This document shows, piece after piece, positions 1 to 43,383 of a DNA stretch of 64,000 nucleotides. Both the position numbers and the translations under genes were made by a program. The stretch spans positions 56,861,146 through 56,925,145 of the forward strand of contig CM048852.1 of NCBI GenBank assembly GCA_026545225.1, in the 5' to 3' direction. This DNA comes from Cornus controversa (taxonomy: Eukaryota; Streptophyta; Magnoliopsida; Cornales; Cornaceae). The notes under the pieces are model-generated. The model was not told the DNA's origin. It saw only the letters and a list, made by a program, of their open reading frames with translations, and ran no database searches. How positions within the stretch are numbered: position 1 is the first letter of the stretch; every line of letters begins with the position of its first letter.

Positions 1-220
1 GAAACTTCCGCGCTCATCTGCTAAGTCGAACCGGTCCTAAAAATTGGGGACCGGTGGGACTTTTGCAGACACTTAAAAATTCTAAAGTCCTAAGAAAAGT
101 TGGACCAGTCCTAAATTTTGGGGACCGGTGGGACTTTTTGGACATATTGAAAATTTGAAAGTCCCGAGAAAAGTTGGACCGATCCTCATATATGGGGACC
201 GGTGGGACTTAGCAAAAATT
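1..220. repeat. 74-bp tandem repeat, about 2.7 copies
   Basis: The core GGGGACCGGTGGGAC occurs at 46-60, 120-134 and 194-208, exactly 74 bp apart each time. The intervening sequence is also similar: each unit carries AAAGTCC, GAGAAAAGTTGGACC and a TCCT block. The array may continue to the left of the window. No coding potential is seen. Its origin is unknown; it could be a satellite fragment or part of a transposon. Confidence 0.8.
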
Positions 221-628
221 CAAAATTTTCATTTAAAGTATATTTTCTAAGTTCTAAGCCCACCAAACTTTAAAACACAGTGTCATCACTCACATACCTG
301 TACTAAGTGATGTCTTCATTAAATCCACGGTATCGAGACACCTTCCGTTTAGTTCTGAAGATCGAGACACAAAATTTAAACAAAAATTATAACTCGATCA
401 ACAAGTTTTGACACTGAAATTTGCCAATTACAATTATATATCTCACACTCATGTCTCTTGTGATTGTTTATTTTTTTTATTTTCTTATTCTCGTCATATT
501 TATTTGTGTTTCTCGTTTGGTTTGATTTGTTCTTGTTTCTCAAATCGCTTTCGCACATAACACCCCACATCTCCACGAGAGTTTTGCCTTGAAACTTTCA
601 TACTATTCAATCATATATATATATATAG
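221..628. other. AT-rich intergenic stretch
   Basis: No gene, RNA or convincing repeat is seen. The short open frames here are AT-rich and resemble no known protein. A short AT microsatellite ends the stretch at about 627. Confidence 0.5.
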
Positions 629-800
629 AGGTCGCACCTTGGTACGATTACAAGTGTCCTCACCCAAAGCGGTATGTATTGGGTTCGAGACTTGGGAGTA
701 ACCTTTCTAAAAATGGGAGTAAGGCTTGTCAACACCCACCTCTCCTAGACCCTATGGGAGCCTTGTGCATTGGGTACAACCTTTATGTGTGTGTGTGTGC
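629..800 (+). mobile_element. tRNA-derived SINE (Au-like type)
   Basis: The stretch has an RNA polymerase III B-box match, GGTTCGAGACT, at 682-692. It is followed by the body typical of this plant SINE group: TGGGAGTAACC, then ATGGGAGTAAGGCT, CACCTCTCC-AGACCCT, and GGGAGCCTTGTGCATTGGGTA before a T/TG-rich tail (781-800). An A-box-like stretch lies near 640-655. I recognise the body from memory of plant Au-type SINEs, so the family assignment is knowledge-based. Flanking target duplications were not found with confidence because both sides are low complexity. Confidence 0.75.
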
Positions 801-1494
801 GGGCCCCTACCTTGTCCCGCCTTGATTAATAATAAATATTATTTTTTAGCTATAATTTTTATTTTTCCTTTATTTCCTATAATAATTTTAAATTTTAATA
901 ACATTTTTGTTATTATGATTGTTAAATACTTGACTATACTAAAAAGAATTACAAATTTTATCTTAAAATTTTTAAATTTGAATTATTTTTCTTTAAAAAT
1001 ATGTATATTGGGGTGCCCCGAACCTCATTGGCTCCGATGTGGGGCAGGACGGATTTGGAACAATATTTTTATTCGTGGACAAGTTTAGGAAAGAGGTGTC
1101 ATGTCCCGAACCCAACCCATTGACATCTCTAAGAATATAATCGGAGAATGTTACTGATGTATGTGAGATGCACCAAAATCATTAATTGATTTATCGATCT
1201 AAACTTAATTAATATAGAAAAGCCAACGATATTGATTGATTATTCAACTTAATATCCATTTTTCATATTTTAATTGATTCTTAGTTTTCACATGTCTAAT
1301 TGAATTAGTATGATTAAGTTTCTTTTATGCATCTCACTTAAAATATTTTCAGGTTAATCTCACTTATAAATTTTATTTTATTTTCTTTTAATTAATTATC
1401 TCATTTAAATTTAGTTGTTTCAGAACGATTTATCAAGGTTAGATATAGCCTTCATTATTGATATAAAGGTTACAACTTAAAAAGTAGGGGCAAT
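801..1494. other. AT-rich intergenic stretch with degenerate repeat traces
   Basis: No gene is seen. GC-rich islands at about 810-830 and 1010-1060 contain TGCCCCGAACC and GGGGCAGGAC. These resemble eroded transposon ends but cannot be assigned. The rest is AT-rich. Confidence 0.35.
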
Positions 1495-1790
1495 TCATTT
1501 AAAGGTGTTGTAGTAACCCTTGTGGACGGGTGTGAGTGGGCGGGTGCGAAGACAGACACTGGGCTGAGCTACCACACTGACAGGGTACAGGGTGCTCAAT
1601 CCCACATCGCCTAGTTGTGGAAAAGGGGATGTGTTTATATGTAGTATGTTCTTTTCAAATGGTATAAGACCTTTTGAGGTAAAACCCAATAGTAAAACCA
1701 TGCGAGCTCAGGCCCAAAGCGGACAATATCATACCATGTGTTGGAGCGGGGTATACAGGTGTCGTGGCAGTGTCAGACACTAGGACACTC
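1495..1790 (+). mobile_element. fragment of a dispersed plant LTR-type repeat
   Basis: It contains TCCCACATCG at 1600-1609, then GGGGATGTGTTTATATG, ACCTTTTGAGGTAAAACCC, and CAAAGCGGACAATATC at 1715-1730. This order of motifs is a widespread plant repeat body, commonly seen in LTRs and non-autonomous retroelements. No coding sequence and no second copy are seen in the window, so this is probably a solo or broken copy. The following 1755-1860 holds GTGTC/GACAC-rich sequence that may be a separate eroded element. Confidence 0.5.
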
Positions 1791-4700
1791 CTTAGAAATG
1801 CGTCCTGAAATTTATTAATTTTGGACACATGGGAGACACGGAGAGGACATGGATAGGACATGGTGGGGTATATTTTGTAATTTTTAGAAGTGCAAAAAAA
1901 ACTACTGAACTTTTTTAAAGTTGCAAAAAGACTCCCTAAACTATTTTTTTTGAGCATTTCAGTCTCTCATCTTCTAAAAGTTGACAATTTGACTCCCTGG
2001 AAGAACTATAATGACATATATACCCTTTAATATGACCATTATACAATTTTCTCTATACATATAGTGTTTTCTCTAAATAAAAATTCAGAAAAATAAAAAA
2101 ATAGTTAGATTGCAAAAAAATAAAAGGCCAATAGAACTTTATTTAATATAAAGCCATGCTGTTTTGTTTGGTATTTTGTATTTAATTTATTTGTTTGTTA
2201 TTAGGAAAATGAGTAACGTGTAAGGTTCTAGTAGTGAGTTTGAATCTAATGACAATACCTCTTTTTGGAAATATGTTAATTGCTTGATAATGAATTGAAG
2301 TATTGTAATTTAGTTTTTTTTTTATTGTTGAATTTATGGTATTGTAAATATTGGTTAACTTGATGGATATATATTAATATATTATATTATTATTTCGTAG
2401 TCGAATTTCTAACGTGTCTGTGCCTTATATTTTTTTGGAATTTATCACGTCATTATACCTATGTCCTTCATCCTAGGATGCAACCTAATGGTACTTTTTC
2501 ACCTTTCAAAGTAAAAAGGTTCAAATTCTCGTACAAAAGAATTGTATGAGTGTATTTCTTGGAAGGTAAAAAAAAATTTCATTAGTTAATGATTACTTTT
2601 TTTTCCCTAAAAAAAGGAGGCCTTTCCTGCATAAAGGGTGTTTTGTTAGGCTGATCTTTCAATTGCCCTTTTCCTCTCCACTGGGATAATTGGAAAGGTG
2701 GTACGCCTGCCCTCTAGAAAGAATCCTTAACTGGAAAATCATGGTTTGAACATCTAACTTCATGTCAGAAGAATAAGGATTATAATTTATATCATTTAGG
2801 CAAGATTTGGTTTTGGCTAACTCTTCAATGTGTTAAATGTAGTTGTCATTTGGGTAATCTGTCGGGTTCAGCTCTCGTGGTTACTACACTTGGTAATGGC
2901 CTCATTATGTTTTGGGAATGCTGAAGGAGGTATGGCTTTTGAATGCTTGGATTCAACGAATTCCCTTTAGGCTAATCCACATTACTGCTTTACCGTTGGG
3001 ACACAATTTTACTGATTGGTTGTTTGAATATTTTCCTATGCAAATGAAATCATACTTTTGCCTTGTATGCAGTATTTTTTTAACATGTCTCTGCTTTGTA
3101 AAATTGAGTCATACTATAATAATCAAAATGAAATGGAACTTTATAGTAGGAGCTATTTGTTAAAAAACTTTAGAATGGCCTTAACTTTACAATTGTAAAA
3201 AAGGAGAAAAAGAATCATTCTATATATATATAGCACAATATATACATCCAATTTCTGTAAGACTTCCAAATGGCCTTGGGACTAGTAGTTGATTTCATTG
3301 AGTGAAACAAACTATTTTGAGCTGAAGACAAAACTCAAAACTGATCTTAGTTTCCCCTTTTCTCCATTTCCAAGAGACCTTGCAATGTTTCTTTATAAAT
3401 ACGAAAGTTAATTGAAGCCATAATGCTGTAAAAGCTTGTGCAAGAAGATCTAAACCTTTTGATTATACTGCAAGGACATGTACTTCGAATGTCATAGTTT
3501 TGGCTATAATAAGGGGACATTGTTTGTCTCTTTGTCATCGAATGTCTAAGAAATGCATATCGAATAGGCTTGAGAGCAGAGAGTGGACCTTTAAGATCAT
3601 CCAACCAGCTGGTTGTTACTTGTTAGTATCTGGTGTGATGATTCTGGTACAGATTCTATAGATAATTCTGGTAGAGATCATGGTTAGATGGAGGGTCACA
3701 TCTCATAAATTGTGGTGCATATATATATATATATACACATATTTATGCCTCGTGTTGAAATTTAATGAGACAGTGGTGATTTTCAGGTTGTAAATGATAC
3801 TGTAGCATTTCTTTTATATGGAAATATATATGACATCAGTTAACTAGGTCTTCCTGAATTTGATTAAGTTTTTATCTATTTATCTTTGGTGATTATGACT
3901 TCTCCAATTGAGACTACCAACTCGCGTGTTAATTGTACTGCATGTCAAACATGTCGAATGAGTCAATTTGCAGGATTCTCCATTCCTTCTGAATTGTTCG
4001 TGTGCTTTATATATACAAGGATATAATAGAATTTAGTTACCTTTTTCATGTGGTGATTTTGTTCAGAACACATAATGCTCCGAGTCTACGGACAATTACA
4101 TTTCTGATTATGACCCATAGTATGCATGTTCTGTGGTGAGCAGCGATCCGGGAATATAGACATCAAGAAAAAGAAGTATTGGCAACATTGTGACGAAGGA
4201 CAGCTCCAACACCATAGTATAATGTCATGTCAATTTCTTGTTCTTTCTTTTTATTTTAATTTTAATTTTATTTTTGGTCTCCTGTTCTGGTTCGTTCTAC
4301 TTCTACTCAAATTGAATGAAACAGCTACCTTATCCTCCTTCAGAGTATTCCATGAAAATTAGGTCTCTCCAATGTGGTTTTAGTTATAATGTTTAGTTCA
4401 GTACTAATTCAAAATCCCTAGACTAGATCTCCTCTTGTTGGCTTTACCATAGTATAGTGAGAGGATTAAGCTTTTCATCAGATTTAATTAATATGCAAAA
4501 AAAAATTACTAGATCGATAACCTTTTTGCTAATTACAGGAAGATGCATGTGGTGACTGGAGACCTGAGACCATATACACAAAGTGCTTATTGCCTGGATC
4601 CACTAATGACTGTTTGGAAAGGCTGAAAATGAACTGCTGTCAGTGACTAGTTTATATGTCCATGTTTGGTGGACAAAATTAAATTACGAAAATTAGCTGC

Positions 4701-5023
4701 CCCAACTTGTAGGAAGTTGCTTTTTGTCGAATAACAATGCTATGGTGTATAATCATTAATCACTAGAAGAGTAAGAGTGGCTTGATGCTAAATATAACAA
4801 GTAAGATGATAGTGATATATACTGAAATCTTACCAAAGTTGGATTGTTACAAGGCAATCTCCATTGCAGAGACAGAGAGATGACCTAATAAAGATGGCAG
4901 ATAGTGCTAATAAAGGAGTCGGATATATAGTTTCAATCCTTTACCTACTTTTATTATTGAAATGGAATCAATGACGAGTAATGTTTTTCAGATCGATTTT
5001 CATTTAAAATGAAAAAAGAGGGA

Positions 5024-5073
<50 letters not shown>

Positions 5074-5446
5074 ATAATATATTATTGTCAGGAAATGTAA
5101 ACAATAGTTGAGATGTTCACTCTTTTTTCCCTGTTTTCTTGAGTGTTCAATATTGTGCTCTTGAAAAGTAGGTAATCCATGGTCCAGATTGTCATATGCC
5201 AAGTCTAACAATCAAGCAGTGGACTTTTCAAGTGGCATCAACATAAACTAGGTCAAAAGTATTTTTAAGAAAAATGTAAGGGTAACTTTGTAACACCATT
5301 TGCATAGTGACAAGGGTGTGGTCCTATGCTAATTTCTGAGTAGCTGCTTAGACTGCTAATTCATGCGGTCCCACTCCAACTAAGCCTTTCACTTCCTCTC
5401 ATGCACTCACCCCACTCCAAACACAGTCCACTTTTGCCTCTTTTGT
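1791..5446. other. intergenic region, no protein gene seen
   Basis: The only structured items are a possible SINE head near 2475-2540 (B-box-like GGTTCAAATTC at 2519-2529, weak), short AT microsatellites, and a 43-bp AT run at about 5029-5071. No open frame here resembles a known protein. The right end (roughly 5280-5446) is the likely promoter region of the MIR164 gene. Confidence 0.45.
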
Positions 5447-5453
5447 TATAAAT
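5447..5453 (+). promoter_or_regulatory. TATA-like box of the MIR164 transcription unit
   Basis: TATAAAT lies about 160 bp before the base of the MIR164 hairpin, on the same strand, in an otherwise CT-rich stretch. Plant MIR genes are RNA polymerase II transcripts that usually carry a TATA box 100-300 bp upstream of the stem-loop. A start site near 5478-5485 would put the CT/CA microsatellite inside the primary transcript. This is inference from position and motif only. Confidence 0.4.
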
Positions 5454-5500
5454 TAGGATGAAAGGAGAGCACAACTGCATATGGGTGTCCAAAGTCCCCA

Positions 5501-5567
5501 ATTTCTCTCTCTCTCTCTCTCTCTTTCACACACACACACACACACACACATATATGTATATATATAG
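5501..5567. repeat. compound CT/CA/TA microsatellite
   Basis: About 24 bases of CT dinucleotides are followed by about 24 bases of CA, then a TA/TG run. It lies between the TATA-like box and the MIR164 hairpin, so it is probably transcribed in the pri-miRNA. CT-rich leaders are common in plant transcripts. Length variation between individuals is likely. Confidence 0.9.
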
Positions 5568-5605
5568 TTTATATTGTATTGGGCAGGTGCTGGTTGTGAC
5601 ATGAG

Positions 5606-5767
5606 AAGGTGGGTGTTGAGCAAGATGGAGAAGCAGGGCACGTGCATTACTAACTCATGCATACAAACATGATTTCATCACTTCCTGGAGATGACTGCTG
5701 TGCTTTTGTTTGATCAGTGAGTTAGTGCTTCATGTGCCCCTCTTCCCCATCATGACCACTCCACCTT
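5606..5767 (+). ncRNA. MIR164: MIR164 microRNA precursor hairpin
   Basis: The 21-nt mature miR164 lies on the 5' arm at 5626-5646 and begins TGGAGAAGCAGG. The star strand is at 5731-5751 and begins CATGTGCCCC. Paired with a 2-nt 3' overhang, they match at 16 of 19 positions, counting one G-U pair. The only mismatches are at mature positions 4, 9 and 10. The stem continues below the duplex (AAGGTGG at 5606-5612 with CCACCTT at 5761-5767) and above it (ACTAACTCA with TGAGTTAGT). In plants miR164 guides cleavage of NAC-domain mRNAs such as CUC1, CUC2, NAC1 and ORE1, acting in organ boundaries, lateral roots and leaf ageing. The mature form ending in GCA is the a/b type. A TATA-like box is at 5447. 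No protein gene overlaps it. Confidence 0.95.
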
Positions 5768-8556
5768 ATTATCATTAAATTTCAGGATCAAGAAAACAAG
5801 TCTTGGTGGTAATTGCGATTAAATCCTGCAAGCAATTCACATCAGCAAAGCTTCATTTTCTCTGGTGAGTCTTTTGAACATCGTCGTCTTGAAGAAAAAA
5901 TGATTAGCATTTTCTTATGGTACACAATAAGAATTCATATGTTATGATGATAGCAACAAAGAAGAAAACGTGTGCATTCATCTTAGTGGTCACAGTTATT
6001 ATCATTGTGATTTTTCAACAAAGCTGCGGTAGAGACCTCTTGACTAAATACCAGATTAGCATCTTAATTGGACCGTGTAACATATAAGAAGATAAGGTGC
6101 AGCCTACTAAGGTAAAGCTGTACAGTCACTATCCTTCTAGTTAAGTTTGATTCAACATCACTTATTGCCCATTTCTTTCTCTCTCATCACTTAGTTTATC
6201 TAAGTACTGGAATTGTTTCAATGCATTAACCACACTATACTGCATAATCAACACTGAATATTCGATTGGATTATTCTAACTCAAGATGGTTAAACAAAAC
6301 TCAACTTTGAGAGATGGGTAAAAGGTGAAGGCTTTGAAGCCTGTGGCTGAATTCTTAGCCAAATTGTACAGACAGCTCTTATATATGGTCCACACTAGGA
6401 GGAGTGGAGACACACTCTAGCTTGAGCAAAGAATGTCAAGAAATTTGATATGTAGCGTGGAGTGCAATAGAACAGATTGGAGAGAGAGAGTTCATGTGGC
6501 CGACCCCATTCATATCGAATTAAGGCAAGGAGGAGGAGGAGGAGGATGATGGGGAGGAGGAGGAGCTGATTATACATACTTATTAAGCAGCTGATGCATT
6601 AGGCTTAAAGCCAATTGATCGAGTCCACCTGCCATTAATGTCCAATCGCAACTGTTGAGACTCCTTCCTAACTAATTAATTAGGAAATTCACTCTCTTGC
6701 TAATAGTCTTTGCCTATATAGTTTTTATGCAGTGCCAGCTAAACTTCTAAAGGGTATACTTATGTTCCAAGGAAGTTGCTGGCATAGGAAATTTGGTGTC
6801 GCTGTCCAGGGATAGTACACCTAGCGTGTCCCTATTCCATCTTCGGTTCTTCCCCCTTGCTCATGTTGAGTGCACTGATATACCATTGTATCAAAAAGCT
6901 TTCTTTCCAACCCCATTATGAACTTTCAGTTATCTACTACAGGAGAGTCCTTTTGTAAGGTATGTTTGGAAGCTACTTAGTGGATGAATGATTCTGCACT
7001 GACAGTCCTTTTTCATTTTCTGGTCTTTTGGTTGTGTTGTTAGATAAAAAGGAGAAAAATGGACCCCAAAAAGGGTTTTTCTTTTTTTTTTTTGGAAAAT
7101 AAAATCCTCCGATATAAATGGAACCTCAAGTAAACTAATTCTATTCATATCCAATGATTCATAAATCAAACAGTGGCAGATACTGTTTATTTTGTGCATC
7201 CATGTTCCTCTTGTTTTGACATAACCATGCTTTCTGGGATTACATGGTGAAGTAGAGATATTACATTTCTGATATAGCTAGTAAGGATCTGGTTATTGAA
7301 TGTCTCCACCTGGGATTCCCTCCAATAAAAATGGGGTGAAGCGAGCACCACAAGTAGGTGACTCCAAGTAGTTTAAATTTAAGACATTATTGAGCTGTGT
7401 TGTTCCATTATGCTATGTTTGGCTGTGGGAGATTTGATGCAAATCAAAGGCGTGATTCAATTATTTATTTGGTAAATGCTATAAGAAGTATATACAGTGG
7501 AATAGATTGAATCTATATGCTGAAATTTGATAAGGCTGTGTGACACATTCAGTAGCAAGGCGGGGTTAAGAACAATTTATGAGTCTACAAGTCTTCTTTA
7601 CCTGATGATTTTGGAACCCTCTCATGTATTTGGGGCTGAAGGATCAATTATTGCTGGTTTTAGACAATGGCTCTCTCATTTGCATCTGTGTAAAGCTAAG
7701 ATATGATAAATTTTCAGTGTCACTTCCTACTGTGTTCATTGACTTTCGTGGCTCGATGGACAGAGGTCCAGTTTGGTCTGTTTCCTAGGATCAGAATCAC
7801 AGCCAAAGTTGAAATCATCTAAGTGATAACTTCAAAAGATTAATTATGATGAGACATTTGACTCATGTTCTGTCAAATCTCGTATAGTAATAACTCCACA
7901 TAATTACCCTCGAACTCTAGTAAATGGGTAATTTCAATTTGATGCTCGTTTAGTTTAGAAAGTTTGCCATGGTATCTAAATGGTAGATTGGGTGGGTAGC
8001 AAATGCAGTTCAGACAGGAAGTTTCCTACATTCAGAGAAGGGACTCAATATTGGTCTGTTTCGAAGAATGAATCCTTTGAAAACATCCCAAATGATAAAA
8101 TGATGCTCCTGGTCCCAGCCGAGCTCAACTAATCTAGCTGATTAAATCAGAAGATTAATTAGGAGGGGGACATTAGTCGACATATTAGCAAAGGCTTCAA
8201 AGCTGACATTGATAACTATGAATGACCATACAAGAACTTAATGAATGGTTGGATGATAAAGATTAGGAGTAATATCAATTTGATCCTGAAGTTAGTGCTG
8301 TGCCATTTGAAAGGCAGATTGGCAGCTCAAACAGTCAAACATTATGCCCCGGCGTATCTGGTGAGAATCCTTCAGTTGATCATGCCAGCCCTAATGGTTG
8401 TCATAGGTCAGTGTTCCCGTCATGACCCGCAATCAAGAAACAATCTTGCACAACAGTATAAGAACTATCAAAGTTTAGTTCACATTTTAGGCAAAATTAA
8501 GTACCCTCCCATGGTTTCCTAGAGCAGAATGCTTTCCAATTTAATGGATTGTCAGC
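5768..8556. other. intergenic region, no gene seen
   Basis: No coding sequence resembling a known protein, no RNA gene and no clear transposon is visible. A GGA-rich patch lies at 6529-6563. The start of this stretch is presumably the 3' part of the MIR164 primary transcript. Confidence 0.45.
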
Positions 8557-8605
8557 ATTTGGATCACCTAATATGCATGCGGTGGTCATACTAGGTGATC
8601 CAAAT
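8557..8605. repeat. 14-bp perfect inverted repeat (hairpin)
   Basis: ATTTGGATCACCTA at 8557-8570 is exactly reversed as TAGGTGATCCAAAT at 8592-8605, leaving a 21-nt loop that contains the palindrome ATGCAT. It sits directly in front of a short tandem array that reuses the CATACTAGGT(A/G)ATC motif. Confidence 0.85.
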
Positions 8606-8745
8606 GTACTGCACTCATTGACACTCATACATACTATTGCTAGGTCATACTAGGTAATCAAGATTTAAGCACTCATTGACACTCATAGACTATTACTAGG
8701 TCATACTAAGTAATCAAGATTTAAGCACTCATTGACACCACTAAG
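8586..8745. repeat. tandem repeat of about 57 bp, 2.8 copies
   Basis: GCACTCATTGACAC recurs at about 8611, 8669 and 8725 (spacing 58 and 56 bp). Each copy is preceded by GGTCATACTAGGTAATC or a close variant. No coding capacity. Confidence 0.85.
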
Positions 8746-10829
8746 CAAAATGCACTGCTTTTAAAGTTGACAAAAGCATCTTTAGAGCCATTACATAACA
8801 TATAATACAGCAAAGGTCAAGTCTGTTATGATATCAACTAGTGAACAATATATCATGAAATGATATAATAGCTTGTGGGGACTTCACAAGAAGAAACTAA
8901 ATGTTCATGAAGGTGTTGATTCACAATTTTTTGAGGGGTCACAACTCACAACCTCATCATAAAGATGGAATGACATCCACCAAAACCTGTATCTTAACTC
9001 TACAAACTTCAAAAAGTATACAAGACAAAAGTAACTTGAAGAAGCAATCTATGCAAAACAAAGTTCCTTTCCTAAACTTTGAACCTAGAAGATGATTGAT
9101 TACACAATTGTCAATGGATGTGTATCACTGAATAAGAATTATCAGTTCAAATTATTTGTCACGTAGGAGACAAGCGCTGTATCTTTCACAGTTAGAAATT
9201 TCAGCTGGACATGTATGATTGAAACTCTATTAAAAATGAAAGCTTTGAAAGAGACTTAAGCAGAGAATCAAACAGTAAAAATTGGGTTGATTAATGAGCA
9301 GGTACAACTCGATCAAGTTTACAAGTTAGAAGGGCGAAAAAAGAAGAATCCATGAGACGGTAAAAATCCCAAGCAGAATGAAAGCCAACAAATTGTTGTG
9401 CAGATTACAAAGCATATACATACTATGATATGTATAACTGAATGGAATTAGGCGCAAATGACACGAAAAATTACAGAAGAGGCTGCAACATTGCCTCTTC
9501 TATACCAGAATAGATTGAATATATTGTTCTCTGAATCTAGAATTTTTTTCTGAACATGTTGTTCTCTGAATCTAGAATTTCAAGCTTAAATTTTCAAATT
9601 GAAATTGAGCTATATTTTTTAAAATATGAACTACAGAAATGTAAGAAGGGGCTTGTATGTATGCCTTCTCATAAATGTGTACAAACTCTAAATTAAGTTA
9701 GTTTTCAGCTTATTGTAATTGTTATCTTTGTAAATTCAAGAACAATAATACATTGTATTCCTGAAATGTTACTAAATTCTAATTACTAGTAAAATGATAA
9801 ACCAGACAACTCAGCTAATCCGGTTTTTTTAGTGCAATGATTAACCAGATCGATTCGATTCTAGCAACACCAAAAATCTACCATAATGGAATAGAGTGAA
9901 CCTATTATAAGTTATAATTGGTAGGGCGAAAAAAAAAAGGGAAAAAAGAACAAGGCCTTGTTATGCAATATTAATGACTCAAATTTTAGGCCAGCCTCTT
10001 AACTTTAGACTTGCAGGTATAAAACCTTGGGTTGATGTTCTCCGAGACGAAAAGCTCAGGCCAAGCCTCTTGGCAATGGGCTTCCACTTTCCAGCCTTGG
10101 AACTTCAAAAAGAGCTTCCACTGCTACTATAAGCCAACTCATTTTTAAGTTTCAATCTTGGACTGAAGTTCCCCGAATTGTAAAGGGATGACTATTCCAA
10201 TAAAAAGATTTGGTTTAAACATGTAGTTAGAGGTGATTGAAAAAGAAAATTATTTAAAGATTCATGGGTGGTTCGAACGAATTTGTAGACATTTTTTTTT
10301 AGTAGTACAAGAGAGGATTATGATGGAACGGAAGCTATAGAAGTTTAATAATAAACAAGGAATAACTTTAAATTCACAAAATTAAAAGAAAATTGTAGAA
10401 AAATTTAATATATCATTGATAATTGAATGAGTAATTTACTCAGTGCAGTACATTTATTTATAAGAAAGAAATCTAGTCTCTAAAAAAATTTAATATGAAA
10501 TCTATTCAAGTCGGTTTAAATGTACGTCTAATAAAATTCTCAAAATATGCCAAAAATGAAAAAAGTGCAATTTTGGGATCTTTAATAAATGAATTTAGCT
10601 GAAAAACAACATGTTTAAGCAGCAAAGCTGCTAACTTATGCAAGTTGAGCTCTTTTCAATTGAAAATGGGTCTTTCTGAGTCAAAATGGACTCATCAAAA
10701 TTGTACCAAAAAATTGTGTCAACTCGTCTGTAAGACTTTCTGGTGATCCAAATAGGCTATATAGGCATCGGCAATCGGTTTTACATGCTAGAAAAATTGA
10801 ATTAAATGAGAATTGCAATGATTTATTAA

Positions 10830-10830
<1 letters not shown>
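8746..10830. other. AT-rich intergenic region
   Basis: No supported gene or transposon. A 23-bp direct repeat, TTGTTCTCTGAATCTAGAAT plus three more bases, occurs at about 9520 and again at 9559. The right end is an AT microsatellite (about 10829-10866). Confidence 0.4.
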
Positions 10831-10871
<41 letters not shown>

Positions 10872-10876
10872 GTGTT

Positions 10877-11180
10877 GGGAAAATTAGATTTTGGTGACAA
10901 AAATTAAAAAAAAAATTCTTTATAGTGATCTTAAACTCAAAAAAAGATAAATAATCACCAAATTTAAAAAATTAATTGCTAATTAGTGACCAATTAAGGG
11001 TAATTTTGTCAAAAATATTTATTTATTAAACATTGTAAAAGATAATTTGTAAATTACGGAATTGTCATCCAATATTAAAGATAACTCCCTGAAGTCATTC
11101 TCTTTTCTATCTTTCCTCATCAGTCATTTTCTTTTTTCTTTTTAGTTTGTTGTCTACTCATTAAAAAAATGACTTTCTAC
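10877..11180 (+). mobile_element. partial copy of the 21903-23090 MULE-like family
   Basis: From GGGAAAATTAGATTTTGGTGAC onward the sequence is diverged but collinear with 21903-22200. Both share the AATCACCAAA, AATTAATTGCT, GTGACCA, TTATTAAACATT and AATTGTCAT(C/T)CAATAT blocks in the same order. The opposite terminal repeat was not found downstream, so this copy appears truncated. Confidence 0.55.
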
Positions 11181-13840
11181 ACCGAAAATCTTAAAATTTA
11201 CTATGTATTCAATTGATTAGGTAATCTATCTGAAACCTAAATTAATGTAGATTTGGATCAGACAGTAAAAAAGGAGCAAAACAAAACGCTCAAACCAATA
11301 TAGAAACTTATAAACTATATTTGAAAAATAAAACCTTATATTTTAAATTGTTAATTTAATGAAGAAGTCTTTGGAGAATGGTGTGACTTTTACAGTTTGC
11401 AAAGAAGAGGTTAAAAAGCCTGATGTTAAGGCCATTGAAATATCCGGCTTAGTTTTCACATGATCGGTAGTATCTTACACTCACAAAATTTGAAGTTTCT
11501 TGATGTATTATGTATATAAAAATTAGTATATATATGAGTGAAGTTTTTTTTTTTTTTTTTTGAAAGACTATATATGAATGAAGATGATTTGAGTGTGTTG
11601 ATGAGTATCAGTTTGAGTTATTTTATTTTGTTTTATTGAAGATTTAGGAATATTTCTAATGGTCATTTTCTGTACATGATTACAACTCGTATTGTTTTCT
11701 TTTACTCCCTTTTCTATCTCTTTAATTTGTAAGTTTCTAAGTTGATTGGATAATAGTTACTTATTGGTGAGTAGAAATTCTCTATTGGCCACTGGGGCGA
11801 ACCTAGCATGTGACCAGGAGGAGCACATGCACATGCCCCACTTGAATTTTTTTTCTTTACCTATATATGTATATATTTTTTTGAAATTTCAAAAATGCCC
11901 TCCCTCAATTTATTTTTTACCCTGCAAATTAGATGAATTGTTTCATTTATTGGATTAATACACTTCTTTTAGAATAGAAAGACCCAATTCTATTGGAGTC
12001 CAATACATTTTCTCTATTGGGTTAATACACTTTTTTTAAACAAAAAGCTCAATTCTCTTGGGACTCAATACGTTTTAGAAAATCGGAAAAAAACGGGGGC
12101 AAGATGTAACCCAACAAGTCATTGCTCTGTTGCAGTGACACAAACGTTCTTCTTTCACAGAGGGGTGTATCAAGTCCTCTCCTCTCTCTTATCTCCTAAC
12201 CCAAAGTTTCTATCTTTTGATCTTTTCTTTTCTTCTCTCTTAACCCAAATCTGAACCTCATGCGATTGTAAATTTCTTTATTTTTTTTTATTTTCTTCTT
12301 TCTTTGGGTCAAATGTAATGATATTTTAATATTGATATCTTATTCTGCTTTTGACTTAAAAAGTTAATCAGTAATGAATTTTAATTTTCAAGTTTCAATT
12401 GGGTATTTATTAAATATTCTTAATGTTTGAGAAGTACATCTCAAACTTTAATTTACTGAATTTGATAAAACTCTAATTATTTAGAAAATTAGGTCATTCA
12501 TAAATAATTAATTTCAATTTTGAATTGTCTCATTACAAAACCAAATATGGTGTTTTACATAAATTCATTCGTTAATTATTGAATTGTTTCACCCACTTTG
12601 ATGTGGGTTGAAGTGTTGGATGTTAAACCAGACATCAAATTAGATAGCAAGTATCAATATAAATGTCTCTATTAGTTAAGCATTTGGAGAGGGAGTATGA
12701 TTGCTTTGGCATGACTCATGGTTTAACTAGTATTTAAATAGTTTTTGTTCCACTTTAAATAAGTATTGATATGGAATTAGATTAAAAATACTACACCAAC
12801 CATTGAAAGATAGTGATTTTGCAATTTTTTTTGTTTCTTGTTTGCATTTTTATGTAAAAAAATTATATTTATTACGCTATTTTTTTTTTTTTCCTCACCA
12901 AATACACTGAACTCCACCTGAACTAAGATACTAATCCGCCCCTGGCTGACGCTGTCCACTCGTATATGGACGGACACATATAAATAAATAAATAAAAATT
13001 AAAAGATGAAGATAATGAAGTCTGGTCAGGACACATATTTTACGGGTCGTGGATGTGTATGAGTTTCACAGTTGTGTTCATGGAGACAGTGTCCACAGCC
13101 ACGCCGAAAAAATCCAAACCAATTTAAATCGCAACTATCTCAAATGACTCTGCAAATGCAATTCAACCTATAATCATATAACCATTAAATTGGATTCAAA
13201 AGTTTTGCAGAAAACATGTTCATCATGATTTTCAAAGTTATGTGATTTACTAGCACAACCACAAGATGAAGGAAAAGAGATTGAGAAGGAAGAAACCAAG
13301 GACAAAAGAAAGAAAATAGCAGCAATGAGAGATTTGGAGAAGCGGCTGGAGGAGGACTCGTAGGAGTGGTGGCCCGCGGAGAAGTGATGTGGGTGGGGGA
13401 TTTCATGAGGTTGAGCACGAAGTACACCGGTCATCACAGTGATGACCTCGTCGGCGACGACGCATCACCTTCCAATTCTTATGCTTCCGTCGGAACTGAT
13501 ACGTCTCTATCCAATCTCTATGCGCATGATCCGTGAAAAATGGGTAGACCTCACTTCATTCTTTTTTAATTTATTATTTATTATTATGTGTTCATATATA
13601 ATTAGATCACATCCGTAATGATCAACAGAGATTATTTATTTATCGTAGGTAAATATTGCCCATTTACTTTGTATATATACTATGACAAGTGTAAATTTGT
13701 CCAATTTTAAAATAATTTATTATCAAAAAAAAATTCACCTAACAAATTCTCAAAGGATTACTTACTAACATTTAAGTTTTAAATTTGATAACTAATTATC
13801 TTTCCTTGACTTTGAGATCGCTTTAAGCAATTTTAATTAA
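11181..13840. other. intergenic region, no supported gene
   Basis: Mostly AT-rich. GGGGCGAACCTAG near 11785 and CTAATCCGCCCCTG near 12930 look like opposed transposon ends but lack a matching target duplication. A GC-richer block at 13320-13540 has open frames on the - strand (for example about 13174-13437, with a hydrophobic run). They match no protein I know and have no clear gene structure. Confidence 0.35.
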
Positions 13841-14366
13841 GATAAAATATTCTACTATTTTATCAGGTTTGTATTTATTGTTTACAAATTAAACTTGTGT
13901 CAAAAAAATTATAACACCTTCATCAAATTTGGTTAAACTAGTCCTAACACCCCTGCTATCAAAAATACTTTCAAATTTTTTCTTTTTATTTTTTACTTTT
14001 TCTTTTTTCTTCTCTTTGTTCTCACAACACTAGGTATTAACAAAAAATATCTGTGGACAATAAGTAATATTTTTTCAAAAAAATCTAAATATCATATGTA
14101 TATTTGTTATATCTCTCAAGAATCAAATTGATTTAAATTTCAGAATTGATTAAACATTTTTTTCTCATAAAATAATTTGTAATAAAAAAAAGAAAGTCAC
14201 AACAGGTTACAAGAAAAGTGAAAAAAAGAGGACTACGAAAATTGGACAAATGATAATGAATAAACTATAGAGCATAAAGGTATATAAATCTATAAATTCG
14301 TGTGATGAGATATACTTATTTAACAACGTAAAAAATTTTATTGGTTGAATTAAAAAGAAAAAGAAA

Positions 14367-14409
<43 letters not shown>

Positions 14410-14593
14410 ATAAAATGCTCAAACATCACCCTCATGTAAAAAAAAAAAAAAAAAATTGAGAGTATTTTTGATAACAGATAATGTTAAGACTAGTTTAACC
14501 AAACTCGAAGAAGGGGTTATAACTTTTTTTATACAAATTTAATCTATAAACAATAAATCTAAACTTGAAAAAATGTAAGAGCGTTTTACCCTT
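13841..14593. mobile_element. inverted-repeat DNA element (MULE-like MITE)
   Basis: The left arm (about 13841-13990) and right arm (about 14443-14593) are reverse complements over more than 100 bp with mismatches. For example ATTTATTGTTTA, GTTATAAC-CCTTC, TTTGGTTAAACTAGT and TTATCAAAAATACT all pair with the other arm. The outer ends read AGATAAAATATTCTAC on the left and, reversed, GGGTAAAACGCTCTTAC on the right. Flanks share TTTTAAT, a possible degraded target duplication. There is no transposase, so the element is non-autonomous. The interior carries an AT microsatellite (14372-14407). Confidence 0.7.
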
Positions 14594-14675
14594 TTTAATC
14601 AAGTTTCGTGACTAAAATTCTTTTTCATTTGTAAAAGTTACTTTCCTTCCCCTTCGTTGCTTAAATCCTCAATAC

Positions 14676-15354
14676 TAGGGGTGCACAAAGAACCGTCGGA
14701 ACCGGAACCGAGGGGAACCGTACCGAACCGTGGCTACGGTTCCGGTTCCTAAAATTAGGAACCGTTACCAACGGTTCCGGTTCCAGGACCAGTAGAACCG
14801 TACCGGAACCGGAACCGTTGGGAGTAACGGTTCCTTGGAACCGGAATCGGAACCGTTTTATATTAAATATGTGTATATATATATAATATAATAACTATAT
14901 ATAATATATATATATATACACATTACATATAATAATTATATATAATGTATATATATTATGTATAATAATTATATTATCATATATTATATATAATAATTAT
15001 ATTATAATATAATTACTATACATAATATATATACATTATATGTAATGTATATATATCTATAATATAATATAATAATTATATATATATAGGGTGCCATTTT
15101 TAGATTGTAGGTCTCACATTTATTTAATGAATATATATATATATATTTTTGTATTTTCAAGCTTCATTAAAAAAAAAAAATTCCTAAGGAACCGCGGTTC
15201 GGAACCGGAACCGTACCGAGAACCGCGGTACGGTTCCTCACGGTTCCAACCCTTAACGGTTCCGGTTCCGGTTCCAAAAATCAGGAATCGTTGGTAACGG
15301 TTCCGGTTCCGATTTCACCAAGAACCGTGAGGAACCGTACCGTGTGCACCCCTA
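14676..15354. mobile_element. hAT-type MITE with 8-bp target duplication
   Basis: The ends are perfect 12-bp inverted repeats: TAGGGGTGCACA at 14676-14687 and its reverse at 15343-15354. They are flanked by a perfect 8-bp direct repeat, CTCAATAC, at 14668-14675 and 15355-15362. An 8-bp duplication with TAGGGGTG ends is the hAT signature. Both arms are packed with GGTTCC/GGAACC and ACCGTACCG units pointing both ways. The middle is almost pure TA-rich sequence. There is no transposase, so it depends on another element. At 679 bp it appears nearly intact. Confidence 0.92.
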
Positions 15355-15362
15355 CTCAATAC

Positions 15363-16640
15363 AATACGTGTTGCAGCCAACCAATGAATGTGCACCACGC
15401 CAGTACCCCAAGGTTTCCTTATCCCTGCCACCTCGGCACAAAAAAATCTATCCACGTGAAACGTCCACAAGAGGTGGTAACAAAATGGTAGGTCAACTCA
15501 AGCATCCCACAGTTCCCACTAACCAACCTAACCCCACCACTTCTGCAGAATAATGCTATCTCGATAGCAGACAGAGACATGCACACACACACGCGGCCGA
15601 CACTAAGGCGTCTGATTGAATTGATTTTTGTAAAGTGTTCTTTCATTTTTCAAACTCAAAAATTATTTTAAAAAGTATTTGAATTGATAAAACAGAAGAG
15701 TTTTAGAGTCTAAAAAAAATATTTAAAGAAAGTTAGTGGGTATCAACTTTCTCATTTAAGCTCTGCTTCTCTTTTCTTCTATGTAAAAGATGAATTAAAA
15801 CTCTGCCAAGCAGGACCTAAGGCCTTTGTAAATAATAATAATAATAAATAAATAAATCCGATCCTATATTTAAAATATTAATATCAAATAATAGTTAATA
15901 ATTTTTATTTAAAAATCATTCTTCTTACTTTTTAGATGCATAGTTACTAAATAGATGACTTAATTATTTATTGTTAAATTTTTATTTAATTTTTTTTGTT
16001 AAATTTTGATTATTAATTATAACAAAGTTATCTGGAGCTCTTTTTATAGATTTCATTATTTTATCTATTTCTCTTTTTTTTTTAAGTTTTTCATATGGTG
16101 ATTCATATTTTCTATTAGACATAATCAATAATATAAATAAAAATGGCCACAAACTTAATATACAATTTCTATGATAAAAAATAATAATAAAAGCATAAAA
16201 ATTGTCTAATGTTCTAACAAAATTTTCACTTTTACTACTATTTTATAACTCTCCATCAAATTATTAAACCCAAATAAAAAATCAGTACTTTCTTGTTTGT
16301 AAGGAAACAGTTAAAGAGTCTAAAAATAACAAAATATGTAAGAAAATAAAATATATAATATATATAAAAGATGAAGTGAGATAGATTGGTTCAAGATACA
16401 CCTCTATTAGCTTAAATGAGAAGAAGAGAGAAAAAAATATATGTAAAAATGGTAAGAAAAAAAAAATGTAACAGATAATAATAAAAAATTAAAAATAAGT
16501 GTTTAATAGAAAAAAATTTAAGAGTATATGAAAAGTTTTACTAAGATCCCTACTTTAATTGGTTGGGACGTAGACAGAAGAAAATGAAATTTTTTAAGGG
16601 CTAATAAATGAATGGGTCGGCTAAGCGGCTCCAGCCGCAA
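15363..16640. other. intergenic region upstream of the LOR gene
   Basis: No gene is seen. Short AAT and AAAT repeats lie near 15832-15858. The right end presumably holds the LOR promoter. Confidence 0.45.
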
Positions 16641-16718: not shown

Positions 16719-17878
16719 ATGATGGCACAACCGAGCTACCCGCCACAAACGAGCTACCCGACGGGGAATAGTCCGGTGGCCGTTGTGGGCCCACAGTTCT
16801 GTGCTCCATATCCGGTGGATCTGACAATTGTGAGGAAGCTGTTGAACTTAAGTGAAGGCAACTTTGCAGTGACTGATGTTAATGGCAATTTGATGTTCAA
16901 AGTGAAGGGTAAGCTCTTGAGCCTTCGGGATCGCCGGATCTTGCTCGACACCTCCGGCAACGCCGTCATCTCTCTCCAACAAAAGGTTATTCAACCCGGC
17001 CACTTAATTTCCCTTTAATTCTTAAAATATATGCACTTTTTAGATCGAGTAGTTTATTCTATTAATTGTTCAAAAATAACAAGAACCATGGATTCATTAT
17101 ATATATATATATATGGTTGTACCTAATTAACTTTTTAAATACTGAATTGATGATCAGATATTGTCTGCACATAGGAGATGGCAAGTTTACAAGGGAGACA
17201 GCTCAGACGCAAAAGATCTGCTTTTCAGTGTGAAGAAGGCTTCTTTGATCCAATTTAAGACAGAGTTAGATGTATTCCTAGCCACCAACACAAAAGAAGA
17301 TGTTTGTGATTTCAAGATCAAAGGCAGTTGGTTTGAGAGATCATGTGTCATCTCTGCCGGAGAGTCTTCAACTATCATTGCCCAGGTAATTAAAAATTTA
17401 ACATTAATTAATATATAAATTAAGGAAAATGCTAAATTTTATAAAATTATATCATGAATTTTTATTATGAATGATATGGTAGGTGATAATATTATTGCAA
17501 CTCTATATTATTAACTCACCATTTAATTATCACATCAGTGATAAAAATTTATGAAATAATTTGATGATGTATAACATTGCTCATAAATTAAACACATTTA
17601 ATTAATTAGCTTCAACGAACAAAGTGATGCATGTGAAACCCGGCCATTAAGTAGACGTACTATTTTTGTGAGATTAATTTAATTTGTATGTTTGAATTCA
17701 TCTTTTATATATATCTATATATAATATGCAGATGCACAGGAAGCACAGTGCTCAGAGCGTTGTGCTTGGAAAAGACACATTCGCGGTGACTGTGTATCCG
17801 AATGTGGATTATGCCTTCATAGTTGCTCTTGTGGTCATTCTTGAAGAGATCAACGAGGACAAAAAAGACGAAGACTGA
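16719..17878 (+). CDS. LURP-one-related (LOR) protein, three exons
   Basis: Exons are 16719-16985, 17158-17385 and 17732-17878. All introns are GT-AG, and joining them gives 213 residues, close to the usual 210-220 of plant LOR15-type proteins. The start is the first of two adjacent ATG codons (16719, 16722); the family usually begins MAQP. Recognisable parts are a proline-rich N-terminus (residues 3-25), then VDLTIVRKLL, a segment containing FAVTDVNGNLMFKVKG, then LLDTSGNAV (all exon 1). WQVYKGDSSD and SWFERSCVI follow in exon 2. The C-terminal strand and helix contain FAVTVYPNVDYAF. LOR proteins adopt a tubby C-terminal-like fold. Arabidopsis LURP1 is needed for full basal defence against an oomycete, but the role of this member is unknown. 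A broken paralogue lies 4 kb downstream. Confidence 0.95.
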
Positions 17879-21575: not shown

Positions 21576-21871
21576 AATGGAACCTCAGATAAACAAAGTA
21601 TACACACACTTTGTTTTTACACAGTTGTTGCTTGTTGGTGGACAAATTATTTTGGCCTATATATGCAGATAAGGAGTTCACACAGCAGATGCCAGATGGC
21701 AAATTTTTAGGGGAGATAGCAAAAATCATATATGCAGATCTGTTGTTTAGTGCTAAGACATCTTCAATGATTCAACTTAAAACCAAATTGAATGTAGACT
21801 TAGCTAATGACACAACAGAGGAGGTATGTGATTTGAGGGTTGAGGGTACTTGGTTTGAGAGATCGATCTTG
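21437..21871 (+). pseudogene. broken second LOR gene copy
   Basis: It opens with ATG and MAQPSYAPLANRPNPVSN-like coding sequence (21437-21511), matching the start of the LOR gene at 16719. The bulk of exon 1 is missing and replaced by an AT microsatellite (21533-21572), itself flanked by a 28-bp direct repeat (21506-21533 and 21622-21649). Exon 2 sequence resumes after an AG near 21667, with RWQIFRGDS matching RWQVYKGDS. It then needs a frame change to reach DLLFSAKTSSMIQLKTKL and EGTWFERS (to about 21871). Exon 3 is absent, and a MULE-like element starts 32 bp later. It cannot make a LOR protein. Confidence 0.85.
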
Positions 21872-21902
21872 TGTTATTTATTCACAAGTCATATTTAATT
21901 TT

Positions 21903-25607: not shown

Positions 25608-26700
25608 TCATAAAAACGTCTTTGGCGGATGAGTTTTGGTAAAAATGTCGACTGTCTGATCAGCAAAAGTGACAGAAAACAAACTAATTATGTCTCGAAG
25701 TACATGTTGACAGACAAAATAACAATCAATTTCAATATGTTTGGTACGTTCATGAAAGACGTCATTATGAGCAATCTGGATGACACTTTGATTATCATAA
25801 CAGAATATTGTAGCAGTGGAATGTGAAATACCCATGTCCTCAAGTAACCATCGAAGCCAAAGAAGTTCTTAAGTGGTATTAGCAAGAGCATGATATTCAG
25901 CCTCTGTATTAGAGCGTGAAGTGATAAATTGTTTCTTACTGCGCCAAGAAATAAGAGAATCGCCCAAGAAGAAGCAATATTCGGTAATGGAATGATGATC
26001 AGTGGGATCTCGAGCCCAGTTAGTATCAGAGTAGGCAAGGAAAACAAGATAATAGTGAGTGGAAAAGTGAAGCTCTTAAAACATAGTACCTTTGATGAAT
26101 CAAAAAATGCGAAGAATGCCATCATAATGGGTAGATCTTGGAGCTGATAGGAATTGACTGACAATGTGAATTGCATAAGCAATGTCAAGGCGAGTAACTG
26201 TAAGATAGACAAGATTGCCGACCAAATATTGATACAATGTTGTATCACTAAACAGAGTACCATCTAGAGGAGTGAGACGCATGCTAGTTTTCAAAGGAGT
26301 AGAAGATATTTTAAAATCAGTGAAAGCAGCTCGAGCAAGAATGTCGGAGACATACTTGGCTTGTGAGATATAATAACCATTGGAATCAGAATGAATCTCA
26401 AGACCCAAGAAATAGCTCAGGTATCCAAGATCCTTCATCTCAAAATGATGACTAAGAGATTGTTTGAGAATAAAAATGTCATCAATATCATCTCCGGTAA
26501 TTATCATATCATCAACATAGAGAAGTAGAAGAGTAATACTAGATGCAACCTTGCGAATGAATAGGCCAGAATCATAAGAGCTTGGTGTAAAGCCGAAATT
26601 GCCAATAACAGAGCTACATTTTGCAAACTAAGCCCGAAAAGCTTATTTAAGACTATATAGAGCACGACGAAGTTTGCAGACTTGATGAGCAGAGTGATTA
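25608..26700 (-). pseudogene. Copia reverse transcriptase and RNase H remnant
   Basis: The polymerase motif YVDD is intact at 26508-26519, followed by MIITGDD and a long conserved stretch (MKDLGYLSYFLGLEI, SQAKYVSDIL). The RNase H part is readable at 25608-25835 with YDNQSVIQIAHNDVFHERTKHIEID. Between them the frame is lost around 25835-26100. Upstream of YVDD, stops appear near 26630. The protein would be non-functional. Confidence 0.88.
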
Positions 26701-26827
26701 TATCTAGGAGGAGGTTTTATATAAACCTCTTCTGTAAGATCCTCATTGAGAAATACATTTTTGACATCCATTTGGAAAATATCCCACTTACGAACAATAA
26801 CAATTGTAAGTAAACTGTGAACAGAAG

Positions 26828-28090
26828 TTAATCAGGCGACAGGAGCAAAAGTCTCATCATAATCAATACTATATTCATGTGTATAACTTTTAGCAACCAG
26901 ACGAGCTTTGTATCATTCCACAGAGCTATCAAAATGAGTCTTAATTTTGTAGACCCATTTACAACAAACAATAGTTTCCCAGAAGATAGATCAACCATGT
27001 CCCATATATGAGTTTGGTCAAGAGCATATAATTCATCTGTCATAACTTGTTGCCAGTGAAGATTAGAACTAGCTTCTCGATAAGATTGAGGTTCATGATG
27101 AGATAAAATAGTGAAGAAGCAATGATAGTCACGAAGATAACCTGGTGTGGTTCTTACCCGATTTGAATGATGAGTACCATCAAATGGCTCAGTGGGAAAT
27201 ATATCAGATTTAGAGGATTCAGCAAATAGGATCATCAATAGAAGTGTAAGGTCTAGAGAGATAGGAAGGGTATGTGGTGAAGCTAATAGTTGACCTACGG
27301 CTAGTGGTTGGTCTGTGTATGTGTTAGAAGGAAAGAGATCAACAATGGGATTACTAAAGAAGAACGATGTAGACGGAGAAGAGATGCGAAACTTAGAGAA
27401 AGATGAGAACATCTTATGTTCCCAAAAAATGGGATCCCAACAATAATAACCCTTGTGCTCAATCTCATAACCTAAGAAACAGCAAAGATGAACATGCAGT
27501 TCTAACTTGGTGTGTTCATGAAGTTGAATGAGGTGAAAACAAACATAACCAAAAACCTTGAGAATATTGTAAGAAGGAGTAACACCATATAGACGCTCAT
27601 AAGGAGATTGATTTTGAAGAAAAGACATGGGAACACGATTGATGGTATAAATAACAATAAGAGCTGCTTCCCCCCAGAATTTTTTAGAATATGAATTGAA
27701 AATAAGAAGAGTGTGAACAGTATCTAAGATATGTCTATGTTTACGTCCGGTTATCCCATTTTGTTGAAAAGTGATAGGACAAGAATAATGAGAGATAGTG
27801 CCATTTTGGCAAAGAAACTTGAGAAAATTGATTTTTTTGTATTCCATGGCATTATCAGCATGAAATTTTTTGATAGATCTTGAAAATTCAGTTTTGACCA
27901 TGTTGGTAAAATCATAGTAAAGTTGAGGTAACTTAGAACGATTATTCATTAAAAAAAGCTAGATAAATCGAGAATAATCATCTATAAAAATGACAAATTA
28001 TTTTGACCCCCCAATAGGGAGAAGGTCCCCAAACATCAGAATAGACTAAGTCGAAAGGAGCAGTTGAAATCGAGTCACTTTTATTAAAGG
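26828..28090 (-). pseudogene. Copia integrase remnant with lost catalytic Glu
   Basis: The DVWGP segment carrying the first catalytic Asp is readable near 28040. Stops then replace conserved aromatic residues: TAA at 27998-28000 within SK-FVIF and TAG at 27959-27961 after SRFI. From 27949 a 373-codon frame is open, with DNA-EY, then QQNG, and RKHRHILDTVHTLL. In the normally invariant QNGxxER block the Glu codon reads GGA (Gly) at 27746-27748, so the D-D-E triad is broken. The frame continues through the FWGEA and YERLYG signatures into the start of reverse transcriptase (WDMVDLSSGK) before slipping. Confidence 0.9.
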
Positions 28091-35940: not shown

Positions 35941-36343
35941 GAGCTGTTTGGTTCATTTGCATTCCTTCTTCCAACCAAACAGCCCATATAACAAACGCGT
36001 GGCTTCCGGATTGATTGAGCGCGTGAGTAAATTACTGAAAAGCATTCCAAACTTAGAAGTTGATAATTCAGAACAAAAGAAAGAGAGAAAGAAAACGAAA
36101 TTTCCGGAAAGGAAAGTGCCGAGAAAGTTAAAAAACACCAAATTGAGAACAAAGAACAAGAAGTCGCACTTTCTCTTGGGTTTTCTCGGAAAATATGTCT
36201 CCAAGTGTTTTCTCGGAAAACTAACAAGTTTTATACGCCCTTTCTTGTTGTTTCCTTCTATAATTCTTGACTATCTATACAACCAAGGCCTCTGTTATTT
36301 TTCTGTTTCTCAGAGGGGAAATTGATTGTGAGGAATTTAGTTA

Positions 36344-36362
36344 GAGAGAGAGAGAGAGAGAA
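36344..36362 (+). repeat. GA microsatellite in the TOL 5' leader
   Basis: A run of GA dinucleotides ends directly before the TOL start codon at 36364. GA/CT-rich leaders are common in plant housekeeping transcripts and can bind GAGA-binding BPC factors. No function is shown here. Confidence 0.8.
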
Positions 36363-36363
36363 G

Positions 36364-41572: not shown

Positions 41573-43383
41573 GATCCTTCACGTGTATGATACTCTCATA
41601 AATTTAATTCCGACAGGATTGATACATGTCAATATGGTATATATGAGTGTCTCTTAGATTGTTATAGTGGCAGCCTTGCATCACAGCACCACTGTCTGCA
41701 GTGTGTATCAGCACTTGCAATATGAATGAATATATCTGGTCTTCTAATTGATGATATCTGCTGCAACTCGACCACATTCTGGAAATCAATTTTGTTTGCT
41801 TAATGATTCTGTTTGCTTGATTATAGTTCGACCAATGGCAAACCTGATCTTTAACTGCGGACTCTATATTACATGAAATCTCTCTTCTTTTTGTATGGCC
41901 ATCTACTGCACCAGTTGGACTTCATCTTCTCAATATAGGTTTCTTTTGAAGAGAAGATCCCATCAATCTTGCAAACATTATTATTATTCATACATGGGTT
42001 GGAAACGACTGATTTTAGGGAACTTTTGTTGCTTGTTTTTGACCCTGGATTGTGATCTCTCTCCTCAGAGGCATGCAAACCATGATTAATTGTTGTCAGT
42101 TGATTCGCCACTTTTTCCCCACTCTTGTGCAAAGGACAAACCTTGCAAAATGTTGCAAGTACCAACATTTTCAGTCTCATCCAAGTATCTGATGCACTTC
42201 ATTTAAAACACCACATTTGCAAGTGAATAAACGTTTTTGCAAAATATGCAAACCATGATTGTCCTCTTTATATGAGTGATATGATCGTACATCCTAATCC
42301 TTATTCGTCGTTTCTTGTTCCGCGCTCATACCACTACTGTTTTTTTAGTATAAAACCCTAAAGTTCACAGGAAGAGACACCTTAGCTCTACCTGTCCTCT
42401 CAGGCAAAAATATAGCGTGTCAAATAACTGCACTACACATTCAACGGTCTACTTTAATGGCAGATCACATGGCTTCTCGAGAGGTTCTCTTCTCTTTCTC
42501 AAGGTAAGGAGTACGTTTAATGGATTTATTGTACAACAAAAAAAAAAATGCAAGCAAAACCAAATAGTAAATTAGAAAATGCTCATGGCTAAAACCAACT
42601 AGGGCATTTTACTACTACAGCAAATAGTCGAATTTTAATTGCAATTACATTCGGTTCAAAATTTTGTTCGTGGGACACAAGGCTGCCAATGAACCACTAC
42701 GATTTATGATGAAAATGTTCAAAATTAAGATTCTGAGTCAATTCTAGGCACATCCCATTTGAACATAGTAGCCAGGACCCACTGGAGCTTGATGAACACG
42801 ACTTAAAGCAACCTTAGTGACACTCGACCAAAATCAATGATGTCTTGTTACAAGTTCCAAGATGTTTTACAGAGGCAGGGTTGTGCAGCTCTAATTAATC
42901 ACAATGAGTTCAGGAACCTGGAGATCTAATTTCATTTCTGGGGATGAATCACAACACTGCCTGTCAGCAATACTTATTATAATAACAATAGATTTGATGC
43001 TTTTACAAATTGGAGGGACGGGGTAAAAAAGAAGCAAAGAAAAGAAAAAGGGCACGCCAAAACCAAGAGGGAAGATAAAAGGAGCATAATATTTACACCA
43101 TATTCACCTATATACCACAGATTATTTGCCGAAGCCTCCCAAGGAATTTGCTGGATTTCCAAATTGAGCGACTTTCTATGCTGGAGGCTAATGAATATAT
43201 AGCTTACAATTTCAACAGTGGCTCAACCTATATATCTTCAGAAACATCGACTGCAAAGAGGAATGCGGGCAGCAGAATGATTAAAACCGATGATCCATTA
43301 GTATCCACAATGCCACATTGATGGCATGGATAAAAGCACTCATAACGAGATGGCCTTCAGAGGAAGGTATGAATGATCTGTAT
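41573..43383. other. intergenic space between convergent TOL and RAPTOR1 genes
   Basis: The two 3' untranslated regions face each other here. No other gene, RNA or transposon is recognised. Poly(A) sites cannot be placed from sequence alone. Confidence 0.5.

Follow-up and report, generated by a model that had tools for sequence, protein, structure and literature searches.

Within a 64,000-nucleotide stretch of the Cornus controversa genome (hereafter the window; C8:56861146-56925145), a MIR164b-type hairpin at positions 5606-5767 of the plus strand is read here, with a probability of roughly 0.96, as a working MIR164 gene and the ortholog of Arabidopsis MIR164B. MicroRNA164 is a plant small RNA whose targets are NAC genes of development. 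The locus presents an exact mature sequence, a star strand of the appropriate geometry and a hairpin recovered by RNA folding and flank alignment, it shows kinship to MIR164b in both its precursor flanks and its gene neighbourhood, and the same genome encodes NAC-like genes with target sites.

The 21-nt mature miR164, TGGAGAAGCAGGGCACGTGCA, lies on the 5' arm at 5626-5646 (+) and is the window's sole match when as many as three mismatches are allowed, with none in 100 shuffles. It is identical to UGGAGAAGCAGGGCACGUGCA, and the same letters appear in published tables as vvi-miR164 (PMC5050227) and as ame-miR164-1/ath-miR164a (PMC6572118). The 21-nt star, or 3p strand, occupies 5731-5751 (+) at a distance of 84 nt from the mature strand, and when the mature is set in register against 5731-5749, 16 of 19 positions pair (15 Watson-Crick and one G-U), the mismatches being A5629/C5746, C5634/U5741 and A5635/C5740. 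Set beside the criteria that PMC12594335 tabulates for plant MIRNA loci, the duplex has 2-nt 3' overhangs on each strand (5645-5646 and 5750-5751), is free of bulges with three mismatches (up to five mismatches and no asymmetric bulge larger than 3 are allowed), and comprises two strands of 21 nt (20-24 nt allowed), with ends taken from the family. The hairpin is about 162 nt long, and a length above 300 nt would draw only a warning. The duplex register was unchanged when 60, 100, 200 or 300 nt of flank were added to the fold. Folding of 5590-5780 (191 nt), the check proposed in the initial annotation, returned the stem at -68.6 kcal/mol (z -4.22), a value that none of 200 shuffles equalled or bettered. 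It should be added that the antisense strand of the same segment folds equally well (-68.9 kcal/mol, z -5.47), and the strand was therefore assigned from the mature sequence and not from the fold. Pattern matching and folding together reproduced the mature and star positions given in the initial annotation, as well as its description of a near-ideal duplex with 2-nt overhangs, three mismatches and a stem continuing above and below.

In-register pairing by itself is not rare in DNA as AT-rich as this window, where 198 of 3000 random positions reach at least 16/19 pairs within 300 nt. Similarly, among 3192 sliding windows of 191 nt, 15 equal or exceed the MIR164 hairpin in fold stability, each with its start within 14601-15201, and 24 show a lower energy when G+C is taken into account. 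Exact miR164 21-mers, on the other hand, were found three times in the 771.7 Mb searched (61 contigs) versus about 0.00035 expected by chance, an expectation that assumes uniform base composition and would be smaller at the G+C content of the genome itself. The case for the locus rests on the exact mature sequence and the hairpin together, pairing alone being weak evidence.

Genome-wide, 17 places match miR164 with at most three mismatches, and the reversed pattern yields one. The three exact matches lie on C3 (L001), at the window locus (L002, on C8) and on C9 (L003), with in-register star pairing of 17/19, 16/19 and 17/19, respectively, and a fourth hairpin on C1 (L005) carries a variant mature sequence with two changes and 16/19 star pairs. 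All four of the remaining places with two mismatches (L004, L006, L007 and L008) fall inside open frames on the opposite strand, where the sites spell THVPCFSN, EQVPCFSN, EHVPCFST and EQVPCFSN, respectively. An exon matching Pfam NAM stands next to three of these sites (L004, L007 and L008) in the 3 kb fetched for each. Inspection of the L006 3 kb by eye revealed no NAM-like frame; the target frame there begins QEDWVLCRVF, a start typical of NAC proteins and much like that of the other target frames. Among the nine places with three mismatches (L009-L017), L012 and L017 fall on the star arms of the L001 and L003 hairpins, and the other seven have no NAC-like frame of at least 60 aa across the site. 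The NAC targets anticipated by the initial annotation were thus recovered as four NAC-like genes carrying predicted two-mismatch miR164 sites.

Kinship to MIR164b was assessed against a printed backbone that, from its label 'MIR164b [62]', we take to be the Arabidopsis gene. PMC3046250 prints it as the carrier of an artificial-miRNA construct; miRNA and star were masked before the flanks were aligned, the 21-nt masks being placed from the flanking letters. The flanks of the window locus align with this printed sequence at a score of 84 (500 shuffles: mean 21.9, sd 3.9, maximum 43), and those of L001, L003 and L005 score 22, 23 and 22, within their own shuffles. Identity to the backbone extends along both sides of the stem, with 19/22 positions in the 5' side of the lower stem (5604-5625), 11/14 in the 5' side of the upper stem (5647-5660), 10/14 in the 3' side of the upper stem (5717-5730) and 18/22 in the 3' side of the lower stem and slightly beyond (5752-5773), where the first 16 of 16 positions, next to the star, are identical. 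Both loops are long, 109 nt in the printed backbone and 84 nt at the window locus, but the loop sequence of the latter has diverged. A stem conserved above and below the duplex, together with a diverged loop, is what a precursor that undergoes processing should show. With an exact 21-mer, an in-register star and MIR164b-like flanks, the assignment to MIR164 is borne out, and the flanks and gene neighbourhood make Arabidopsis MIR164B (AT5G01747) its most likely ortholog.

Three genes of the window serve as synteny anchors. A LOR (LURP-one-related) gene is matched in three pieces at 16779-17839 (+), the first of which has At5g01750 as its sole PDB match, a match that does not separate it from other LOR genes. 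A gene with VHS and GAT pieces (TOM1-like) spans 36271-40411 (+), with three of its four matching pieces below the Pfam cut-off; in Arabidopsis, AT5G01760 is a TOM1-like VHS/GAT gene. Since a genome-wide GAT search gave three matches, none of which is the GAT piece of the window, the VHS/GAT gene rests on Pfam scans of the window frames. The third anchor is a RAPTOR exon at 52317-52679 (-), whose best PDB match is 5wbi (Regulatory-associated protein of TOR 1), presumably the Arabidopsis protein. NCBIfam gave no match for five neighbour frames, and Pfam gave none for five of ten neighbour frames in a first set and two of five in a second. For Arabidopsis, the published lists name the NTF2-family gene AT5G01740, AT5G01730, miR164b (AT5G01747) and RAPTOR1A (AT5G01770) under one GWAS peak (PMC12018779) and describe At5g01750 as a DUF567/LOR-template protein (PMC10264818). 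LOR, VHS/GAT and RAPTOR genes all accompany the hairpin, as in the MIR164b neighbourhood, but a comparison covering 84 kb of C8 did not find the NTF2-family neighbour beside it.

Part of this neighbourhood recurs on C1. A second RAPTOR copy at C1:105566051 is 83% identical across the exon, and blastn of the window against the 60 kb around it gave 21 shared pieces, of which 17 are colinear and four are not. The colinear pieces comprise the LOR gene and window positions ~43121-58283, which match C1:105.547-105.584 Mb at 69-87% identity; the window stretch ~43121-58283 is provisionally taken to belong to the same gene as the RAPTOR exon. The C1 block (C1:105536106-105584231, L032-L036) also contains a WI12 (NTF2-like) gene at 105536106, for which the 84-kb C8 segment gave no match. 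Neither a MIR164 hairpin nor a VHS/GAT gene was detected in the C1 block, and no MIR164 relic was found there, the best mature-like site reaching 15/21 and a single match of 16 nt having E 0.38. An in-frame TGA interrupts the first of the C1 LOR pieces, and this LOR copy may be damaged. The simplest reading of these data, we infer, is an old duplication followed by complementary gene losses from an Arabidopsis-like order.

Other features of the region were also recorded. About 4 kb past the LOR gene, window positions 21682-21877 resemble, in translation, LOR piece two of the C1 block (60-64%, tblastx) and are perhaps a partial LOR copy. Copia-type retroelement fragments (RVT_2, SH3_retrovirus) lie at 26103-27949 (-), a non-LTR element fragment (zf-RVT) lies at 50930-51241 (+) inside the RAPTOR-colinear stretch, and a SNAP-family (alpha-SNAP-like) exon is located about 8 kb upstream of the window start (L019 1506-1886, -).

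It is very unlikely that the locus is a silenced or decaying MIR164 copy, its sequence kept and its gene unexpressed while other loci supply miR164. The same mature sequence is indeed supplied by two other loci, and the paralogous C1 block, in which no MIR164 was found, illustrates that the region can lack or lose the gene. However, both stem extensions are conserved relative to the printed MIR164b backbone while the loop has diverged, and the star is identical to one listed with reads in grapevine. We regard it as extremely unlikely that the hairpin, although a MIR164 gene, is a recent copy of another locus rather than the MIR164b ortholog: the mature sequence is identical at three loci, but only the window locus has flanks scoring 84 against the printed MIR164b sequence, with those of the other three at shuffle level, its mature-to-star spacing is 84 nt versus 35, 35 and 31 nt at the others, and its neighbourhood resembles that published for Arabidopsis MIR164B. 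The probability that the hairpin only resembles MIR164, being an inverted repeat that arose by chance or a NAC target gene fragment in inverted form, is negligible, because the ease of finding some pairing in AT-rich DNA, the better folding of other inverted repeats and the peptide HVPCFS spelled by the complement of the mature (frame 5453-5674, -), as in any miR164 gene, are set against an exact 21-mer with the correct star, the failure to see by eye any NAC-like frame near the hairpin besides HVPCFS, and flanks shared with the printed MIR164b, a feature that this explanation does not accommodate.

The 3p strand of the window locus recurs in other plants. Its exact 21 nt are printed in the tables of five small-RNA papers covering two grape species, bean and Astragalus. 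PMC5050227 lists it for vvi-miR164c, a locus on grape chromosome 8, as the strand opposite the mature, so that the window locus and this grapevine locus have identical mature and identical 3p strands in a comparison that covers the two 21-mers; the grapevine precursor is 192 nt, as read from a misprinted coordinate. The counts tabulated for grapevine berry in that paper are 976 reads for the star versus 198 for the mature, the latter figure being repeated for all three loci. In the Astragalus table it is ame-miR164-2, with 41 reads versus 1584 for the mature (PMC6572118), and in the Amur grape table it is va-miR071, with 5 reads, under non-conserved miRNAs (PMC3353164). It is further listed as novel_mir_70 (PMC6366190) and as miR_6, which we take for one of the new miRNAs of PMC7804330. 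The grape and bean tables thus file as new or non-conserved a strand that is the miR164 star. A lime paper lists a one-letter variant, altered at a position that is mismatched at the window locus. Two spellings of the presumed Arabidopsis star had no match in the papers searched, and that sequence was not used.

These counts bear on two further points. The initial annotation forecast fewer reads for the star than for the mature strand; as the ratio varies among other plants, this forecast may hold or fail without harming the interpretation. We also consider it unlikely that MIR164b yields a second functional small RNA in the form of its 3p strand. All 21 letters of that strand, including the three mismatched positions, are the same here and in the grape, bean and Astragalus tables, and it exceeds the mature in the grapevine berry counts (976 versus 198 reads), but the 41 versus 1584 reads tabulated for Astragalus, the 5 reads for Amur grape and the variant listed for lime argue against such a role.

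In the established route, a Pol II transcript folds into a hairpin that is cut by DCL1, and the miRNA is loaded into AGO1 and directs cleavage of NAC mRNA. By analogy with this pathway, RNA polymerase II in C. controversa would produce a primary transcript folding into the hairpin at 5606-5767, DCL1 would probably cut it from base to loop, the 21-nt 5p strand would enter AGO1, and the loaded miR164 would guide cleavage of NAC mRNAs within the codons for VPCFS. Base-to-loop cutting is listed for Arabidopsis mir164b (PMC5322449), and PMC9023350 reports that pri-miR164b shows neither an R-loop nor detectable co-transcriptional processing. Both the Arabidopsis MIR164 genes and CUC1/CUC2 are described as having roles in organ separation (PMC5608315). 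PMC2945783, searched for further phased small RNAs, does not mention miR164. A candidate TATA box, TATAAAT, is located at 5447-5453 (+), 179 nt upstream of the mature sequence, but its placement is suggestive only: the motif occurs 22 times on the plus strand of the window (~0.1 per 300 nt), and the locus has other TATATA stretches at -69 to -65. L001 and L003 carry TATAAATA at -128 and -136, L005 carries TATAAA at -194, and L001, like the window locus, also holds other TATATA stretches. Five short frames upstream of the mature sequence, the two longest being 48 aa at 5458 and 28 aa at 5481, were considered as a possible miPEP, but none is proposed, the longer frames running through microsatellites.

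The initial annotation had also held that the first 16 kb contain no strong functional signal other than the hairpin. This is a fair description, as none of the 45 stop-to-stop frames of at least 60 aa over 1-16500 was recognised and the LOR gene starts at ~16.7 kb, but it is not proven, those frames having been judged by eye only and a stronger inverted repeat being present at 14.6-15.4 kb. The latter consists of inverted-repeat DNA at 14601-15391 flanking an AT-rich repeat; it reaches -95.5 kcal/mol per 191 nt, exceeding the stability of the MIR164 hairpin, and is perhaps a mobile-element remnant.

Rfam reported nothing at the gathering score across the whole window. At lax settings, the MIR164 model RF00647 matches the window locus across all of its 68 positions, with 21.2 bits in the sense and 30.4 bits in the antisense orientation versus a gathering score of 64; unlike the window locus, however, it is a short-loop model. 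All four MIR164 loci (L001, L002, L003 and L005) fall below the gathering score and all four score higher on the antisense strand, and 20 letters of the 3' arm consensus of RF00647 correspond to the mature sequence in reverse complement. Because the other three loci are missed as well, the failure is taken as a limit of the Rfam model. It is consequently plausible that the MIR164 gene of the window bears no label in annotation, as the initial annotation had held. The locus is a genuine, ordinary new member of a known family and settles no open question of biology. The general lesson is one of bookkeeping, in that the RF00647 cut-off fails on all four MIR164 loci found in this genome and the 3p strand is elsewhere filed as a new or non-conserved miRNA. 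For C. controversa, the finding annotates a conserved developmental regulator that is invisible to protein-based annotation and lies under the Rfam cut-off.
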